This document shows, piece after piece, positions 223 to 19,873 of a stretch of 26,386 nucleotides of DNA; within the stretch, counting starts at the first letter, position 1; the number at the start of each line of letters is the position of its first letter. The translations under genes and the position numbers were made by a program. This DNA comes from a virus: positions 1-26,386 of the IMG/VR virus record IMGVR_UViG_3300028045_000082. One strand, written 5' to 3'. The notes under the pieces were generated by a model. The model made no database searches. It was not told the origin of the DNA and worked only from the letters and a program-made list of their open reading frames with translations.

Positions 223-738
223 ATGTTATCACTAGAACAACAAAAAACCTTAAAAACACAAGCAAACGTTTCAATTCTTGAAAAAAGAGAGGAAAGGTAT
301 ATGTACTACGGTATATATGAACAATACTGCATAAATAAATCTAAAATGCAAGGCTTAGAGTATTCAAAATTGAATCCAGCACAGCATTTTATGTTTAAAA
401 GAATATTGCACGGATTAAAAATGTATAAGAAAGAGGAAATATCTTCTATGCATAGACAAAAACGTGCAAGAATTATCAAAGTTTGGAAAAAGGGTCAAAA
501 TATCATAAATGAATGGAAACAACAAATTGCTAATAAAAGATGTAATACATTTTTTGAAGTTACATTTGGAACAAAGAGTTCTTTTGTAAGAGATATATTA
601 GCTATTCCTCATACTGAGATTTTACCTGATTATATAAACAAAACCAGTTTAAAAGATATGGGAATTAATTATGAAGATGTAATTCTTAGATTTATGGCTG
701 TTGGTTTATTACCAAAAAACTTTCTTGATATAAAATGA
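223..738 (+). CDS. Hypothetical phage protein, 171 aa
   Basis: I do not recognise this protein. It is basic in its first 110 residues, rich in Lys and Arg, with long predicted helices, no Cys cluster, no membrane segment and no signal peptide. The ATG at 223 is preceded by an A/T-rich leader and no purine-rich ribosome binding site, as expected for a Bacteroidetes host. It is the first gene after the terminator-like hairpin at 132-174 and its end overlaps the ATG of the HNH-like gene by four bases (ATGA), so the two are probably translationally coupled. A nucleic-acid role is possible from charge and neighbour, but this is only inference. Confidence 0.7.
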   Translation: MLSLEQQKTLKTQANVSILEKREERYMYYGIYEQYCINKSKMQGLEYSKLNPAQHFMFKRILHGLKMYKKEEISSMHRQKRARIIKVWKKGQNIINEWKQQIANKRCNTFFEVTFGTKSSFVRDILAIPHTEILPDYINKTSLKDMGINYEDVILRFMAVGLLPKNFLDIK

Positions 739-1001
739 AGAAACAATCAAATAAAATGGCACGTTTGAATAATGAATATAGTAAGCTACGTAAAGAATGG
801 CTTCCTAATTATCCAATGTGTCAAGCAAAGATTAATAAATGTACATTAAAGTCTACAGATGTACATCATAAAAAAGGCCGGGGAAAGTATCTTTTAGATA
901 CAAATACCTGGCTTTCAGTATGTAGAAATTGTCATACTTGGATAGAACTTAATCCTGAAGATTCTAAAGAATTAGGGTTCAGTATATCTAGAATAAATTA
1001 A
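735..1001 (+). CDS. HNH-like zinc-finger nuclease domain protein, 88 aa
   Basis: A small protein with the layout of an HNH/McrA-like fold: a first Cys pair around residues 28-35 (PMCQAKINKC), a DVHHKKGRG segment around 42-50, and a second Cys pair in CRNCHTWIELNP around 63-74. The two Cys pairs should bind a structural zinc. The HHKKGRG segment matches the first catalytic His of the beta-beta-alpha-metal motif. The last His/Asn of a textbook HNH motif is represented by the H in CRNCHTW, so it may be a minimal nuclease or a DNA-binding relative. It overlaps the preceding gene by four bases. In many phages a small HNH protein lies next to terminase genes, but none is visible here. Confidence 0.65.
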   Translation: MKKQSNKMARLNNEYSKLRKEWLPNYPMCQAKINKCTLKSTDVHHKKGRGKYLLDTNTWLSVCRNCHTWIELNPEDSKELGFSISRIN

Positions 1002-2130: not shown

Positions 2131-2265
2131 ATGAAAGAAATGAAACAATTTGAAATAAAAATTATTTTTTCAGTAATAATAATAGTAATTTTAATGCAAT
2201 TATCATCTTGCAAAGTTCAAGATACAATGATGGTTCCAGCAGGAACATATATTGAATATGAATAA
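2131..2265 (+). CDS. Tiny lipoprotein, 44 aa
   Basis: The frame from ATG 2131 codes for a short charged start, a hydrophobic core (residues 11-24, IIFSVIIIVILMQL) and a lipobox LSSC with the Cys near residue 27, followed by only 17 mature residues that end GTYIEYE. Its stop overlaps the ATG of the helicase gene at 2258. Size and layout fit an outer-membrane lipoprotein or a small spanin-like or exclusion peptide, but no lysis gene lies nearby. It is the second of three small lipoproteins in the window. Confidence 0.6.
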   Translation: MKEMKQFEIKIIFSVIIIVILMQLSSCKVQDTMMVPAGTYIEYE

Positions 2266-3367
2266 TAGAGAAAAAATACAAAAAGAAGCATTGGAATTAA
2301 CCTTAAGTCACAAACGTTGTGGCTTAGGTATTTCAATGGGTGTTGGAAAAACTAGAATAGCAATTCAACATCTTATAAAGAATTATCATGATGAAATCAA
2401 CGTTTTAGTTGTTATACCTAAGAAATCTGTAATGCAATCCTGGATGGATGAATTAGATAAAGTAGATTTTATGAATGAAGATGATTTAGAAAATCATATT
2501 ACATTTGTTACATACTTATCTATTAATAAATGTGATCCTGAATTATATGATATTATTTATTTAGATGAATGTCATAGTCTATTAAATTCACATAAAGGTT
2601 TTTTAGATGCTTTTGATGGTAAAATTCTTGGTTTAACAGGAACTCCTCCTACAAATAAAGGTTCTGAAAAATATGATATGGTAACTAAATATTGTCCAAT
2701 TATATATAAATTTTCAGTAGATGATGCAACAGATAGTAAAATCTTAAATGATTATAAGATAATTATTCATAAACTACAGTTGTCTAAAATTCTAAATTAT
2801 AAGAAGACTACTAAAGATGGTAGATCTTGGAATACATCAGAATTGAAAGATTATGAATATTTAACATCTCGTTATGAACAAGCATCTACAAATAAATCTT
2901 TACAATTTGCAGCAATAATGAGAATGAGAGGTCTTATGGATTATACAACTAAAGAAGACTATCTAAAAGGAATATTAGTTAATGTAAAAGATAAGTGTAT
3001 TATATTTGCTAATACTCAAAAACAAGCAGATAAAGTTTGTTCTCATAGCTATCATTCCGGTAACTCAAAATCTGATGAAAACTTAGAATTATTTAGTGAT
3101 GGAAGAATTGATAAATTATCTTGTGTATTACAGCTCAGTGAGGGTATATCTATTCCTAATTTGCGTCAAGGTATTATTATGCATGCTTATGGTAATGAAA
3201 GGAAGACGGCCCAAAGAATAGGAAGACTATTAAGACTATCTCCTGATCAAAAAGCTATATGCCATATTCTATGCTATGAAGATACAATGGATGAAAAATG
3301 GATTAATAATGCATTAAAAACATTTGATCAAAATAAGATAGAATATTTTAACCCTTTAAATACTTAA
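2258..3367 (+). CDS. SF2 DNA helicase (DEAD/DEAH-box, UvsW/Res type), 369 aa
   Basis: A superfamily 2 helicase with its core motifs in order: Walker A SMGVGKT at residues 26-32, motif II DECH at 103-106, motif III TGTP at 127-130, and motif VI AQRIGRLLRL near residue 319. Motif IV-V regions (FANTQKQAD, LSEGISIPNL) lie between. It should couple ATP hydrolysis to DNA or RNA remodelling, for instance branch migration or R-loop removal as T4 UvsW does. At 369 residues it is a compact helicase with no obvious extra domain. I chose ATG 2258 rather than a TTG six bases upstream, because the ATG overlaps the stop of the preceding lipoprotein gene in the usual coupled fashion. Confidence 0.9.
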   Translation: MNNREKIQKEALELTLSHKRCGLGISMGVGKTRIAIQHLIKNYHDEINVLVVIPKKSVMQSWMDELDKVDFMNEDDLENHITFVTYLSINKCDPELYDIIYLDECHSLLNSHKGFLDAFDGKILGLTGTPPTNKGSEKYDMVTKYCPIIYKFSVDDATDSKILNDYKIIIHKLQLSKILNYKKTTKDGRSWNTSELKDYEYLTSRYEQASTNKSLQFAAIMRMRGLMDYTTKEDYLKGILVNVKDKCIIFANTQKQADKVCSHSYHSGNSKSDENLELFSDGRIDKLSCVLQLSEGISIPNLRQGIIMHAYGNERKTAQRIGRLLRLSPDQKAICHILCYEDTMDEKWINNALKTFDQNKIEYFNPLNT

Positions 3368-3370
3368 ATT

Positions 3371-3643
3371 ATGGAAAAAGCAAATCCAGAAGTAAACATT
3401 GATGAAATATTAAAAGAAATAGATAAAGTAAGTATCATTTTATATAATGATGATGTAAATACATTTCAATTTGTATCACATTGTTTGGTTAAATACTGTG
3501 GACACTCAATGATTCAGGCTGAACAATGCGCTCATATAGTACACAATAATGGCAAGTGTCAAGTAAAACATGGTAGTTATGAAGATTTAGAAGCTATATA
3601 TTATGCATTATCTAATGCAGAATTAACAGTGCAAATAGAATAA
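3371..3643 (+). CDS. clpS: ClpS-like adaptor for the Clp protease, 90 aa
   Basis: The whole protein aligns with ClpS, the N-end-rule adaptor that hands substrates with destabilising N-terminal residues to ClpA or ClpC for proteolysis. Visible hallmarks are ILYNDDVNTFQFV (residues 23-35) with the N-degron-binding Asn26-Asp27-Asp28, the helix QAEQCAHIVHNNGKC (49-63) with His58 that contacts the substrate amino group, and the GSYEDLE segment near 68-74. Length equals that of bacterial ClpS. The pattern is close to Bacteroidetes ClpS, suggesting capture from a host. A phage copy could redirect host proteolysis or protect phage proteins. It lies directly behind the helicase with a three-base gap and before unknown genes, not next to a clp protease gene. 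Confidence 0.9.
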   Translation: MEKANPEVNIDEILKEIDKVSIILYNDDVNTFQFVSHCLVKYCGHSMIQAEQCAHIVHNNGKCQVKHGSYEDLEAIYYALSNAELTVQIE

Positions 3644-3646
3644 ATT

Positions 3647-4141
3647 ATGATAGTTGATAAACAATTAATTTCTAAAATATTATTTAAAGATGTTTTTAAT
3701 GATAAAGCTTCTAATACAGAGTTATTAAAAAATATCATTATATCTAACTTAAGTGATTCAGCTACAGAGTTTATATTACACGCTGTAGCTAATCCAGATT
3801 TTGAAATATTAAATAAAAATGATTATTTTAAAGTAAAATCAGATATAGATGGTGTTGTTAGAGTGCATAATCAAACATTAGATATTTTATCAGATATGGG
3901 ACTCTATGAAGATGGTTATGTCTATGGTCAAGTTTTAGATTCTGATGATTATAGTTCAGAATTTATTACTTATCATCACAGTATGAAGGTTCAATTATTT
4001 TTATGTGATTCTTTAAAAAAAGTTGATAAAGTAAAAATGGAATGTATTATGAGTACAATAAGAACATGGGAATTAATAAAAATTAATAAACTAGATATTA
4101 AATATTTTAATTATGGCGCAAATAAGCCCTCAACTTCTTGA
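3647..4141 (+). CDS. Hypothetical protein, 164 aa
   Basis: I do not recognise this protein. It is a soluble, mixed alpha/beta sequence with an acidic middle (DSDDYSSEF around 103-111) and no Cys cluster or membrane segment. It follows clpS with a three-base gap and its end overlaps the next start at 4113 by 29 bases, so it is part of the same transcript. No catalytic motif is visible. Confidence 0.65.
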   Translation: MIVDKQLISKILFKDVFNDKASNTELLKNIIISNLSDSATEFILHAVANPDFEILNKNDYFKVKSDIDGVVRVHNQTLDILSDMGLYEDGYVYGQVLDSDDYSSEFITYHHSMKVQLFLCDSLKKVDKVKMECIMSTIRTWELIKINKLDIKYFNYGANKPSTS

Positions 4142-8280: not shown

Positions 8281-8302
8281 AAAAATGACTGAACAAGAAT
8301 TA
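8281..8302 (+). repeat. 22-base duplication of a gene start
   Basis: The 22 bases here recur exactly at 8696-8717. They cover five A and the first codons ATGACTGAACAAGAATTA, so the thioesterase and the following unrelated protein both begin MTEQEL. It shows that the boundary repeat together with some coding sequence has been copied from one gene to the other. Confidence 0.85.
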
Positions 8303-8707
8303 GAAGAATTTCAATTAATATCCACACACCCGATCAAGAAATCAGACTTAGGGTTTCATGGAAAACTTTTTGGTGGTAAACTATTAGCGTGGTTAGATGC
8401 AGCAGGAGCAGCATTCGCAGCTCAAGTATGTGATACCCCAAGAATGGTTACAATAAAGATAGATGAATGTTTGTTTAAAAAAGCATCCAAAGAAGGTCAA
8501 CTACTAAAAATCTATGGTAAAGTATACGAGTTTGGAACTACATCTGTAACTCTATTATTAGAGTGTAGAGCACATAGCGTATATACAGGAAAACAAACAT
8601 CAGTATTAACAACTAACATAAAGTTTGTTAGAGTAGATGGTGATGGCGATGCTATACCTATATCAGAAAGAGTTAAAAATAAATTAAACCAAAACAAAAA
8701 TGACTGA
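8285..8707 (+). CDS. Hotdog-fold acyl-CoA thioesterase-like protein, 140 aa
   Basis: Matches YciA/BACH-type acyl-CoA thioesterases of the 4HBT hotdog superfamily. The signature GKLFGGKLLAWLDAAGAAFA spans residues 26-45, with Asp38 where these enzymes keep a catalytic Asp. It is followed by VTIKIDECLFKKASKEGQLL (55-74), YEFGTTSVTLLLE (81-93) and the final KFVRVDGDGDAIPI (113-126). It would hydrolyse acyl-CoA in the cytoplasm, changing the fatty-acid pool for membranes. The Asn usually found just before the GxLFGG signature appears to be replaced in DLGFHGKLFGG, so activity should not be taken for granted. Length fits the family; the last residues LNQNKND come from the boundary repeat. Confidence 0.88.
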   Translation: MTEQELEEFQLISTHPIKKSDLGFHGKLFGGKLLAWLDAAGAAFAAQVCDTPRMVTIKIDECLFKKASKEGQLLKIYGKVYEFGTTSVTLLLECRAHSVYTGKQTSVLTTNIKFVRVDGDGDAIPISERVKNKLNQNKND

Positions 8708-17058: not shown

Positions 17059-17432
17059 CAAGTGAAGTAAAAAATGAATTAGATATTGATCTTAAAACAT
17101 TTAAGAGATTACTAAAAATGATTGAATCAACTATTGAAGATAGAGATTTAGCATACGTGACTATAAAAAATATGAATATGACGGACATATATCATATGTT
17201 ATTTTTAAAACTTTTATTTTTTACTGAAAGAGTATCTTATAGTGCATACTTTGATTTACCATATAATACTGAAACTTGGGAAAGTTTAACAACACATAAT
17301 ATAGTTAGAAATATAAGTAAAGATAAAAGTGCTTATAAAAATAATTACAAATTAATTTATAAAAAATTAATATATAATCCGAGCTTTCATCCTAATATAG
17401 ATGACATAAACAAAAACAATAAAAAATGGTAG
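17055..17432 (+). CDS. Hypothetical helical protein, 125 aa (TTG start)
   Basis: The frame opens at TTG 17055, overlapping the RusA stop (TTGA), and codes for MTSEVKNELDIDLKTFKRLL then a helical protein with many Lys, Tyr and Asn. The first in-frame ATG is at 17118 (residue 22). I keep the TTG because the reading frame before the ATG looks coding and the stop-start overlap is typical here. Its stop overlaps the ATG of the zincin-VWA gene by seven bases. Family not recognised. Confidence 0.6.
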   Translation: MTSEVKNELDIDLKTFKRLLKMIESTIEDRDLAYVTIKNMNMTDIYHMLFLKLLFFTERVSYSAYFDLPYNTETWESLTTHNIVRNISKDKSAYKNNYKLIYKKLIYNPSFHPNIDDINKNNKKW

Positions 17433-18580
17433 CAGACTTAGTTTCAAAAACAAGTAAAAACTTAATATTTGAAGAGCCCTTTTACGGGCTTTTTTTAGTT
17501 GGATTAAATAAATCCTTCACAGATAAAATTCCTACAGCTGGTGTCAGCAAGAATGGAATAGGCGTACAATTAACAGTAAATCCTGATTTTTTTAATTCTT
17601 TAAGTGAAAGACATAGAGTTGGTTTATTAAAACATGAATTACTTCATATAAGTTTTGGGCATTTAATTATGCGAGATATGTACAGTGATCATAAACTATT
17701 TAATATAGCAGCTGATTTAGAAATTAATCAATACATAGATAGTTCAGATCTTCCAGAAGGCGGATTAACATTTGATTCTTTTCCTGAAATAAACTTTCCT
17801 TGTAGAGCTGGAACTAAAGTATATTATAAAATGTTAGAAGAGGCCCGTCAAGATGGTTCTTGTCCAGCTTTAGATTCACTTTTAGATGAAATGGATGGTA
17901 ATTCTCCATATTGTCATCCTACTTGGGATGATTTTGAGGATATCCCTGAAGCTGAAAAAAAGTTAATTCAAAAACAGATTGATCATCAAGTCAAAGAAAA
18001 TGCTGACACAACAGAAAAAAGATGTGGTAGCATACCTGGAGAGTTAGCAGATCTTATTCAAAGACTAAGACATGTTGAACCTGCAAAATTTGATTGGAAA
18101 GGATATTTACGCAGATTTGTTGGAAACTCTTCTATTGTTTTTACAAAGAAGATCAGACGGAAGTATAACAAAAGATATTCAGGTAGCCCTGGTCTTAAAA
18201 TTAAATTTAAAAATCACATATGTGTTGGTGTAGATACATCAGGTTCTGTAAGTCAAAATGAATTAAAAGAATTTTTTAGTGAATTGACTCACATGCATAA
18301 AACTGGACATAAAATTACAATTGTTCAATGTGATACAAAAATAAACTCAGTTAAGGATTTTAATCCTAAACAAGATTGGGAAATACATGGTAGAGGTGGG
18401 ACAATATTCCAACCTGTTATAGACCATTATAATGAGTTTGGAAGATATACAGCTCTCATCTATTTTACAGATGGAGAAGCAGGAACTCCAGACAAATGTC
18501 CAAATAATACTTTATGGGTGCATAGTTCTGCATGCAGTATAAATGATGAATTACCAGGACAAAAAATACAATTAAACTAA
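17426..18580 (+). CDS. Zincin-like and VWA domain protein (DUF2201 type), 384 aa
   Basis: Two domains. The N-terminal half has EPFYGLFLVGLNKSF (17-31), IPTAGVSKNGIGV (35-47) and a metallopeptidase motif HELLHISFGH (70-79, His70/Glu71/His74, with His79). The C-terminal half is a von Willebrand A domain with MIDAS residues DTSGS (270-274), Thr326 in GRGGT and FTDGEAG (347-353). This layout is that of the DUF2201 family, usually next to a MoxR ATPase, as here. It may act as a substrate-binding or protease partner in a chaperone-like complex. A terminator-like hairpin lies inside the first 70 bases of the gene, at 17472-17496. Confidence 0.85.
   Translation: MVADLVSKTSKNLIFEEPFYGLFLVGLNKSFTDKIPTAGVSKNGIGVQLTVNPDFFNSLSERHRVGLLKHELLHISFGHLIMRDMYSDHKLFNIAADLEINQYIDSSDLPEGGLTFDSFPEINFPCRAGTKVYYKMLEEARQDGSCPALDSLLDEMDGNSPYCHPTWDDFEDIPEAEKKLIQKQIDHQVKENADTTEKRCGSIPGELADLIQRLRHVEPAKFDWKGYLRRFVGNSSIVFTKKIRRKYNKRYSGSPGLKIKFKNHICVGVDTSGSVSQNELKEFFSELTHMHKTGHKITIVQCDTKINSVKDFNPKQDWEIHGRGGTIFQPVIDHYNEFGRYTALIYFTDGEAGTPDKCPNNTLWVHSSACSINDELPGQKIQLN
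17472..17496 (+). terminator. Terminator-like hairpin inside a coding region
   Basis: AAGAGCCC (17472-17479) pairs with GGGCTTTT (17486-17493), one G-U pair, loop TTTTAC, followed by a run of seven T ending at 17496. By shape it is a normal intrinsic terminator, but it lies 47 bases into the zincin-VWA gene and codes for EEPFYGLFL. It may act as a translation-sensitive attenuator. The protein stretch is plausible for the family, which argues that the gene truly begins upstream of it. Confidence 0.6.
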
Positions 18581-18604
18581 AAACAAATTAATAAAAAAAC
18601 AATT

Positions 18605-19873
18605 ATGGCACAAGTAAATTTAAACATTGACGACCTAAAAGGATTTATGGGTCACATTATTAATAACAATAGATTTTTACAAAAAGAAGGAAAGCTTCCT
18701 GTCTCAATAGAAGTATTGGGTGAATCTGGAATTGGAAAAACATCTACAGTTAAAGAAATAGCTGAAGAACATGATTTAGATTTTGTAAAATTAAATTTAG
18801 CTCAAATTGAAGAGCTTGGTGATTTAGTTGGATTTCCAACAAGACAATTTCAAATGTATAAAGAGCAAGTTGTAAAAGTTGGTAAATCTGATGATATACA
18901 ATATTCATCTCAAGCAGCTGCTTCTGAAGATTTAACAAAAATGTCACAAAATACTGTTACAAAAAAAGTTGGCCAATGGGTTAATGAACTTGCTGTAGCT
19001 GACTATTTAAAAAATGGTTATAAGATGACAGGTAAGAATAGAATGTCTTATTGTGCACCAGAATGGATTGCTGATAAAAAAGCCGGTGGTATTTTATTAT
19101 TAGATGATTGGAACCGTGCAGATGTTAGATTTATTCAAGCATGTATGGAGTTAGTTGACAGACAAACATATATTTCATGGTCTCTTCCTAAAGATTGGCA
19201 TATTGTATTAACAGCAAATCCAGATACTGGAGATTATATGGTTAATTCAGTTGATTCAGCACAAAAAACAAGATACATAACAGCTAATCTTCAATTTGAT
19301 GTAGATGTATGGGCTCGTTGGGCAGAAGAAGCTGGGATAGATTCAAGATGTATTAACTTTTTATTATTACATCCTGAGCTTGTAACACAAGAAACAAATG
19401 CAAGAGCAATTACTACATTCTTTAATTCAATATCAAGTTTTGAAAATTTTGAAGATAATTTACCATACATTCAAATGATTGGTGAAGGATCTGTAGGTGA
19501 TGAATTTGCATCAATGTTTACAGTTTTTATTAATAATAAGTTAGATAAACTTGTTACTCCAAAAGATCTATTAACTCATGATAATGAGTCTTATATTCTT
19601 GGTGAGTTAACAGGATGTGTAGGTAAAGATGATAATTATCGTGCAGACATTGCGTCAACATTAGCTACAAGATTAGCTAATTATTCAGTTGTTTATTCTA
19701 AAGAAAATACAATTACACAAAAGATCACTGATAGATTAGAAGCTCTTTGTACAAAAGATTATTTTACTAATGATCTTAAGTACTTAGTTGTAAGAACTAT
19801 TTTCAACGGAAACAAGCAAAAATTTAATAAATTGATGATGAAACCAGAAATTATCAAGATGACAATAAAATAA
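18605..19873 (+). CDS. MoxR/CobS-type AAA+ ATPase, 422 aa
   Basis: AAA+ ATPase of the MoxR type. Walker A GESGIGKT at 39-46; IEELGDLVGFPTRQF (68-82) where MoxR proteins have a substrate loop; Walker B GGILLLDDWNRAD (161-173), with Asp where many AAA+ have Glu; sensor 1 Asn205 in VLTANPDTGDY; and the arginine region VDSAQKTRYIT. The lid and a helical C-terminal domain follow. Phage copies are often named CobS in annotations. Next to the VWA gene it forms the known MoxR-VWA pair, which remodels or activates proteins using ATP. It starts 24 bases after the VWA gene. Confidence 0.88.
   Translation: MAQVNLNIDDLKGFMGHIINNNRFLQKEGKLPVSIEVLGESGIGKTSTVKEIAEEHDLDFVKLNLAQIEELGDLVGFPTRQFQMYKEQVVKVGKSDDIQYSSQAAASEDLTKMSQNTVTKKVGQWVNELAVADYLKNGYKMTGKNRMSYCAPEWIADKKAGGILLLDDWNRADVRFIQACMELVDRQTYISWSLPKDWHIVLTANPDTGDYMVNSVDSAQKTRYITANLQFDVDVWARWAEEAGIDSRCINFLLLHPELVTQETNARAITTFFNSISSFENFEDNLPYIQMIGEGSVGDEFASMFTVFINNKLDKLVTPKDLLTHDNESYILGELTGCVGKDDNYRADIASTLATRLANYSVVYSKENTITQKITDRLEALCTKDYFTNDLKYLVVRTIFNGNKQKFNKLMMKPEIIKMTIK

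Follow-up and report, generated by a model that had tools for sequence, protein, structure and literature searches.

The sequence analysed here, called the window throughout, spans 26,386 bases and makes up the whole of one IMG/VR virus record, from a phage of Bacteroidota bacteria. It carries a gene for a relative of ClpS, the host adaptor from which the Clp protease receives substrates that begin with particular residues. Viral and genome collections were scanned with profiles and revealed at least 238 viral stretches encoding a ClpS relative; the comparisons below use 64 distinct sequences from phages and 80 from Bacteroidota chromosomes. "Host" in these comparisons means the sampled Bacteroidota genomes. 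The features of the locus are as follows.

223..738, + strand: conserved protein without assigned function, in the same block as clpS (present in 32 of 64 clpS loci)
735..1001, + strand: small HNH-type protein of the same conserved block (PHROG HNH endonuclease, 8e-8; present in 33 of 64 clpS loci)
2252..3367, + strand: SF2/SNF2-like helicase directly upstream of clpS (Pfam ResIII and Helicase_C; PHROG 16 DNA helicase, 7e-38)
3365..3373, + strand: TAAATTATG at the helicase-clpS junction (sequence repeat)
3371..3643, + strand: clpS, a Bacteroidota-type ClpS adaptor (Pfam PF02617, AlphaFold2, Foldseek)
3371..3427, + strand: N-terminal extension, residues 1-19 (start set by an upstream in-frame stop; pLDDT 60-74)
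3446..3454, + strand: N26-D27-D28, the alpha-amino binding loop (N and the first D in 100% of the 64 phage and 80 chromosomal ClpS)
3464..3466, + strand: F32, aligned with the gatekeeper Met40 of E. coli
3530..3532, + strand: A54, aligned with the pocket residue Met62 of E. coli
3542..3544, + strand: H58, aligned with His66 of E. coli (100% in the phage and chromosomal sets)
3578..3616, + strand: helix alpha-3, residues 70-82, counterpart of the ClpA-docking helix of E. coli (DSSP on the model)
3641..3649, + strand: TAAATTATG where clpS meets the downstream gene (sequence repeat)
3647..4141, + strand: gene downstream of clpS, 164 aa (open reading frame)

The clpS open reading frame runs from an ATG at 3371 to a TAA ending at 3643 and encodes 90 amino acids, and its start is fixed at 3371 because an in-frame stop lies two codons upstream. 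An earlier note on this DNA had claimed a phage-encoded ClpS at 3371-3643, and the gene proved to be real: Pfam, AlphaFold and Foldseek agreed, and selection has acted to preserve it. The protein matched Pfam ClpS (PF02617) with an E value of 8.9e-16 and 57.9 bits against a cut-off of 23, as well as PHROG 27368 ('ATP-dependent protease') at 4e-6, and the closest sequences with a solved structure were all ClpS. The AlphaFold2 model (pLDDT 88.9) gave 38 Foldseek matches in the PDB at E ≤ 0.001, nearly all of them named ClpS and including the proteins of M. smegmatis, plants, E. coli and Caulobacter (probability 1.00, best rmsd 0.8-1.4 Å). The NCBIfam equivalog models for ClpS yielded 44.3 bits at best, which is below their curated cut-off of 117. 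The chromosomal Bacteroidota ClpS of locus L056 also stayed under the cut-off (best 32.4), implying that these models miss the Bacteroidota subfamily. The dN/dS ratio was between 0.03 and 0.27 in 27 of 28 close clpS pairs, the exception (0.61) having few changes; judged by these ratios, the phage clpS is under purifying selection.

The description of clpS as sitting alone did not survive comparison with other phages. Only 3 bases separate the end of the helicase gene from the ATG of clpS, and this linkage recurs: a helicase homologue was the next gene upstream of clpS in 35 of the 64 distinct phage loci, and in 47 of them clpS followed this SF2 helicase at a distance of at most three genes. 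On the other side of clpS, the gene at 3647..4141 had no family above the cut-off (Pfam, PHROG) and no homologue shared with other clpS loci. The 9-base repeat TAAATTATG that flanks clpS occurs just twice in the window, which is no higher than expected by chance. A YkuD_2 L,D-transpeptidase-like protein with a lipoprotein-like signal is encoded at 1252-1869 (Pfam 1.3e-31) and recurs in six clpS loci.

Elsewhere in the window we observed a 20-nt element, NTAAACCAAAACAAAGATGA, in seven copies between 6397 and 8944, mostly at successive junctions of small genes, where it overlaps both the 3' end of a gene, translated as NQNKDE, and the following gene's ATG; none of 100 shuffles reached this. An exact 18-mer of the element was present in at least 119 viral stretches, with up to 13 copies per locus. 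Its ATG opened a reading frame of at least 40 aa in 126 of 147 copies, and the upstream reading frame ended at the 18-mer in 113 of 147. The element may act in translation start or coupling and be widespread. The window also encodes a small SET-domain protein, unusual for a phage (6094-6420, Pfam SET 1.5e-12), a 4HBT-family thioesterase (8285-8707, Pfam 4e-12) and, at 17426-19873, a metallopeptidase/VWA protein (DUF2201) followed by an AAA ATPase (PHROG 1297), possibly a chaperone-like pair.

The residues which hold the alpha-amino group of an N-degron are those given in the earlier note, NDD at 26-28 and His58: N26, D27 and D28 align with N34, D35 and D36 of E. coli ClpS and H58 with its H66, and N26, D27 and H58 are invariant in phage and chromosomal ClpS alike. 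The claim of an intact pocket stands for these alpha-amino-binding residues, but the side-chain pocket, which is hydrophobic, has F32 and A54 in place of the two E. coli methionines. Phe was found at the Met40 position in all sampled chromosomal Bacteroidota ClpS and in 87% of the phage sequences, and Ala at the Met62 position in 93% and 100%, respectively. By its sequence, the window ClpS is thus of Bacteroidota type, with a pocket that is host-like and not E. coli-like. Moreover, the pocket positions differed least between phage and host (JS 0.036 vs 0.145 for random sets, p about 1e-4).

The most diverged parts of the protein between phage and host were alpha-3 (JS 0.216) and beta-3 (JS 0.207). 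Chromosomal Bacteroidota ClpS have P-I/M-C in alpha-3 and L-S-A-E-I-E in beta-3, and the phage proteins mostly lack both. In E. coli, alpha-3 carries the ClpA-binding residues Glu82 and Lys84 (PMC12493166). An ungapped alignment matched the docking residues Glu79 and Glu82 of E. coli with E71 and E74 of the window protein and placed Ile76 at the position of Lys84. The missing lysine is a trait of the subfamily, because chromosomal Bacteroidota ClpS mostly lack it as well.

The N-terminal extension of the window ClpS has 25 residues ahead of the conserved Asn, fewer than the 33 of E. coli and close to the median of 28.5 among chromosomal ClpS, and unlike that of E. coli it has no Pro-Pro junction. 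In a sister clade, likewise linked to the helicase, only 11-12 residues precede the Asn. The start codons of some ClpS homologues are uncertain, and in several members of the clade upstream stops bound the short extension (L015, L121 and L160, at most 12-14). These proteins may bind N-degrons without delivering them, as we infer from the extension. A C-terminal tail, YESxMH, conserved in the short-extension clade was considered as a new ClpS feature and rejected: in L015, L117, L121, L147 and their relatives the last 20-29 or so bases of clpS also belong, in another frame, to the gene that follows (MKVICID...), and since the tail coincides with the start of that gene, it is no evidence of ClpS function.

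When a tree was built from 72 core columns, the label "phage" required 5 changes compared with 47 in shuffles, although the alignment is short and the inner branches are weak. In this phylogeny with host ClpS, of the kind suggested by the earlier note, the phage copies cluster apart from the host copies, and a single origin of phage ClpS is possible.

Homologues of the window helicase are present in the Crassvirales phages phi14:2, DAC15 and cr126_1, among them Steigviridae; a profile search found no clpS beside the helicase in Fpv3, phi14:2, DAC15 or cr126_1. The window itself has no structural genes. The terminase of phi14:2 matches 9 of 20 clpS-bearing records (about 25% identity), which makes a crAss-like affinity of the window likely. 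The helicase-linked clpS phages are about 100-125 kb where near complete, and a separate phage group, including megaphages of 635-642 kb, has the same ClpS type in another gene context. MT835505 was set aside as a relative: its ClpS is of another type and forms the last part of a very long open frame, and the record is unverified.

Among 74 evaluable close helicase relatives, which were chosen for likeness to the window helicase and whose share does not describe all phages, clpS was present in 5 and absent in 69. In 50 clpS-less loci the next gene was the zinc-ribbon gene that clpS-bearing relatives have after clpS, and the same slot is found without clpS in L174 and with it in L006. In the clpS-less L174 a terminator-like hairpin followed by a T run lies just after the helicase, at about 4090-4115. 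In the helicase tree the presence of clpS was strongly clustered, with at least 5 changes, 3 of them forced by supported branches. Because one set of loci was collected through clpS and the other through the helicase, these changes may be gains or losses. IMG/VR records can be fragments. Since most close relatives lack it, clpS is not essential to this phage type, and the pattern suggests an old accessory gene in many mid-size crAss-like phages.

No Clp_N unfoldase and no L/F-transferase (Leu_Phe_trans) were detected in 20 phage records, and ClpP was found in 2 of the 20, neither in the helicase-linked group; a phage-encoded N-degron pathway was therefore rejected. One ClpS phage (G005, the 181-kb record of L017) carries a pair of ClpP-like genes whose matched regions are each interrupted by a single in-frame stop; these could be gene breaks or recoded stops. 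ClpC-size Clp_N proteins occur in all 14 sampled Bacteroidota genomes and L/F-transferase in 9 of the 14, indicating that the N-degron pathway is present in such hosts. Thus, if the phage ClpS acts on Clp at all, it must act on the host machine. Binding to host ClpA or ClpC, as the earlier note predicted, is made plausible by this distribution, but the support is partial, with Ile76 at the position of Lys84 in the ungapped alignment and alpha-3 as the most diverged part.

We consider it somewhat more probable than any contrary view (about 0.55) that the window ClpS is a working Bacteroidota-type adaptor which adds to or redirects host N-degron proteolysis, with binding, docking, delivery, timing and substrate being the inferred parts. 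The phage ClpS would be made during infection beside the helicase of the replication block, would use its conserved pocket to bind proteins whose first residue is bulky and hydrophobic, and would dock on the N-domain of host ClpC with the alpha-3 face. It would then feed N-degron proteins to host ClpCP, adding to or replacing host ClpS, and the host protease would be turned towards N-degron substrates and away from others. A switch of this kind is known from E. coli, where ClpS shifts ClpAP from ssrA-type to N-degron substrates (PMC9663308). The adaptor reading rests on the fold, the pocket residues, purifying selection, the recurring slot, and the absence of Clp_N from the phages and its presence in hosts. 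The near-chromosomal length of the window extension would also favour it, as would the distribution of L/F-transferase and the example of Leptospira ClpS1, which binds ClpA without a Lys84 equivalent. Against it, at the sequence level, count the divergence of alpha-3 and beta-3 from the host proteins and an extension that is shorter than in E. coli and lacks Pro-Pro; the many close relatives that manage without clpS would weigh the same way.

In another possible role the protein is a decoy or inhibitor that engages both host ClpC and N-degrons but is poor at delivery, so that host ClpS and other ClpC substrates are blocked and phage proteins are shielded from degradation. Delivery in E. coli depends on the ClpA pore loops pulling on the ClpS extension, and blocked entry inhibits it (PMC9663308), which makes the 11-12 residues of the sister clade suggestive; moreover, the ClpS of E. 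coli is itself an inhibitor of the degradation of ssrA-tagged substrates (PMC9663308). However, the window ClpS retains its 25 residues, and a protein that only blocked could do without strict conservation of its N-degron pocket, whereas no part is better conserved than this pocket. We regard a decoy function as rather unlikely for the window protein. With similar reserve we offer, as a tentative idea, a functional split in this lineage of Bacteroidota-phage ClpS, in which long-extension forms such as that of the window deliver to host ClpCP, and the short-extension clade, having the pocket without the delivery arm, acts as an anti-Clp or anti-N-degron blocker.

It is less probable still that ClpS is an adaptor dedicated to phage targets and not to a host protein, helping to turn over at least one replication protein of the phage, for instance a partner of the neighbouring helicase. 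The recurring position behind the helicase in a replication-type block across diverged phages would fit, but the helicase is common without clpS (69 of 74), no phage protein with an N-degron was identified, and co-regulation alone could explain the gene order. Finally, the identity of up to 62% over the core to Flavobacteriales ClpS might point to a captured host gene without function or to bacterial DNA misbinned as virus. We give this hardly any credence: phage genes lie on both sides, the same slot is occupied in many phages, dN/dS is low and the phage copies cluster apart, and misbinned host DNA is ruled out by synteny, selection and clustering.

These results suggest that the takeover of the N-degron adaptor extends beyond jumbo phages, with a Bacteroidota-type ClpS in many mid-size crAss-like phages. 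The phage protein is a testable system for whether phages steer regulated proteolysis of the host, and the short-extension clade provides natural variants in which N-degron binding may be uncoupled from delivery. The literature search, which was not exhaustive, found no paper on ClpS in Bacteroidota phages. The novelty is nevertheless modest, because a jumbo-phage ClpS with a proposed hijack of ClpAP has already been published (PMC7824862, AMM43882.1) and gp708 of Atu_ph07 is annotated as ClpS (PMC6102473); the window ClpS extends this known theme.

The jumbo-phage proteins (PMC7824862; Atu_ph07 gp708; PA5oct group) share with the window ClpS that they are phage-encoded and that the same Clp hijack is proposed for them, but they have E. 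coli-type sequences, which match 22 phage records, and come mostly from jumbo phages of Proteobacteria. In addition, Atu_ph07 has its own ClpA, ClpB and ClpX, whereas the helicase-linked crAss-like phages have no Clp_N protein. Chromosomal Bacteroidota ClpS (Flavobacteriales and relatives, 80 loci) resemble the window protein in their length of about 90 aa, the Phe gatekeeper and Ala at the Met62 position, and have the motifs LYNDDVN(T/S)F, QAEQCA and VHxxGKC in common with the phage copies, from which they differ in their usually longer N-terminal extensions. E. coli ClpS has the same fold and alpha-amino-binding residues but differs in Met40, Met62, Lys84, a longer alpha-3 and a 25-residue extension with Pro24-Pro25. 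Leptospira ClpS1, which is chromosomal and has been tested in vitro, is similar in its non-Met gatekeeper (Tyr36), its pocket Ala and the aliphatic residue at the Lys84 position (PMC12493166), and without a Lys84 equivalent it still binds ClpA at 0.44 µM (PMC12493166).
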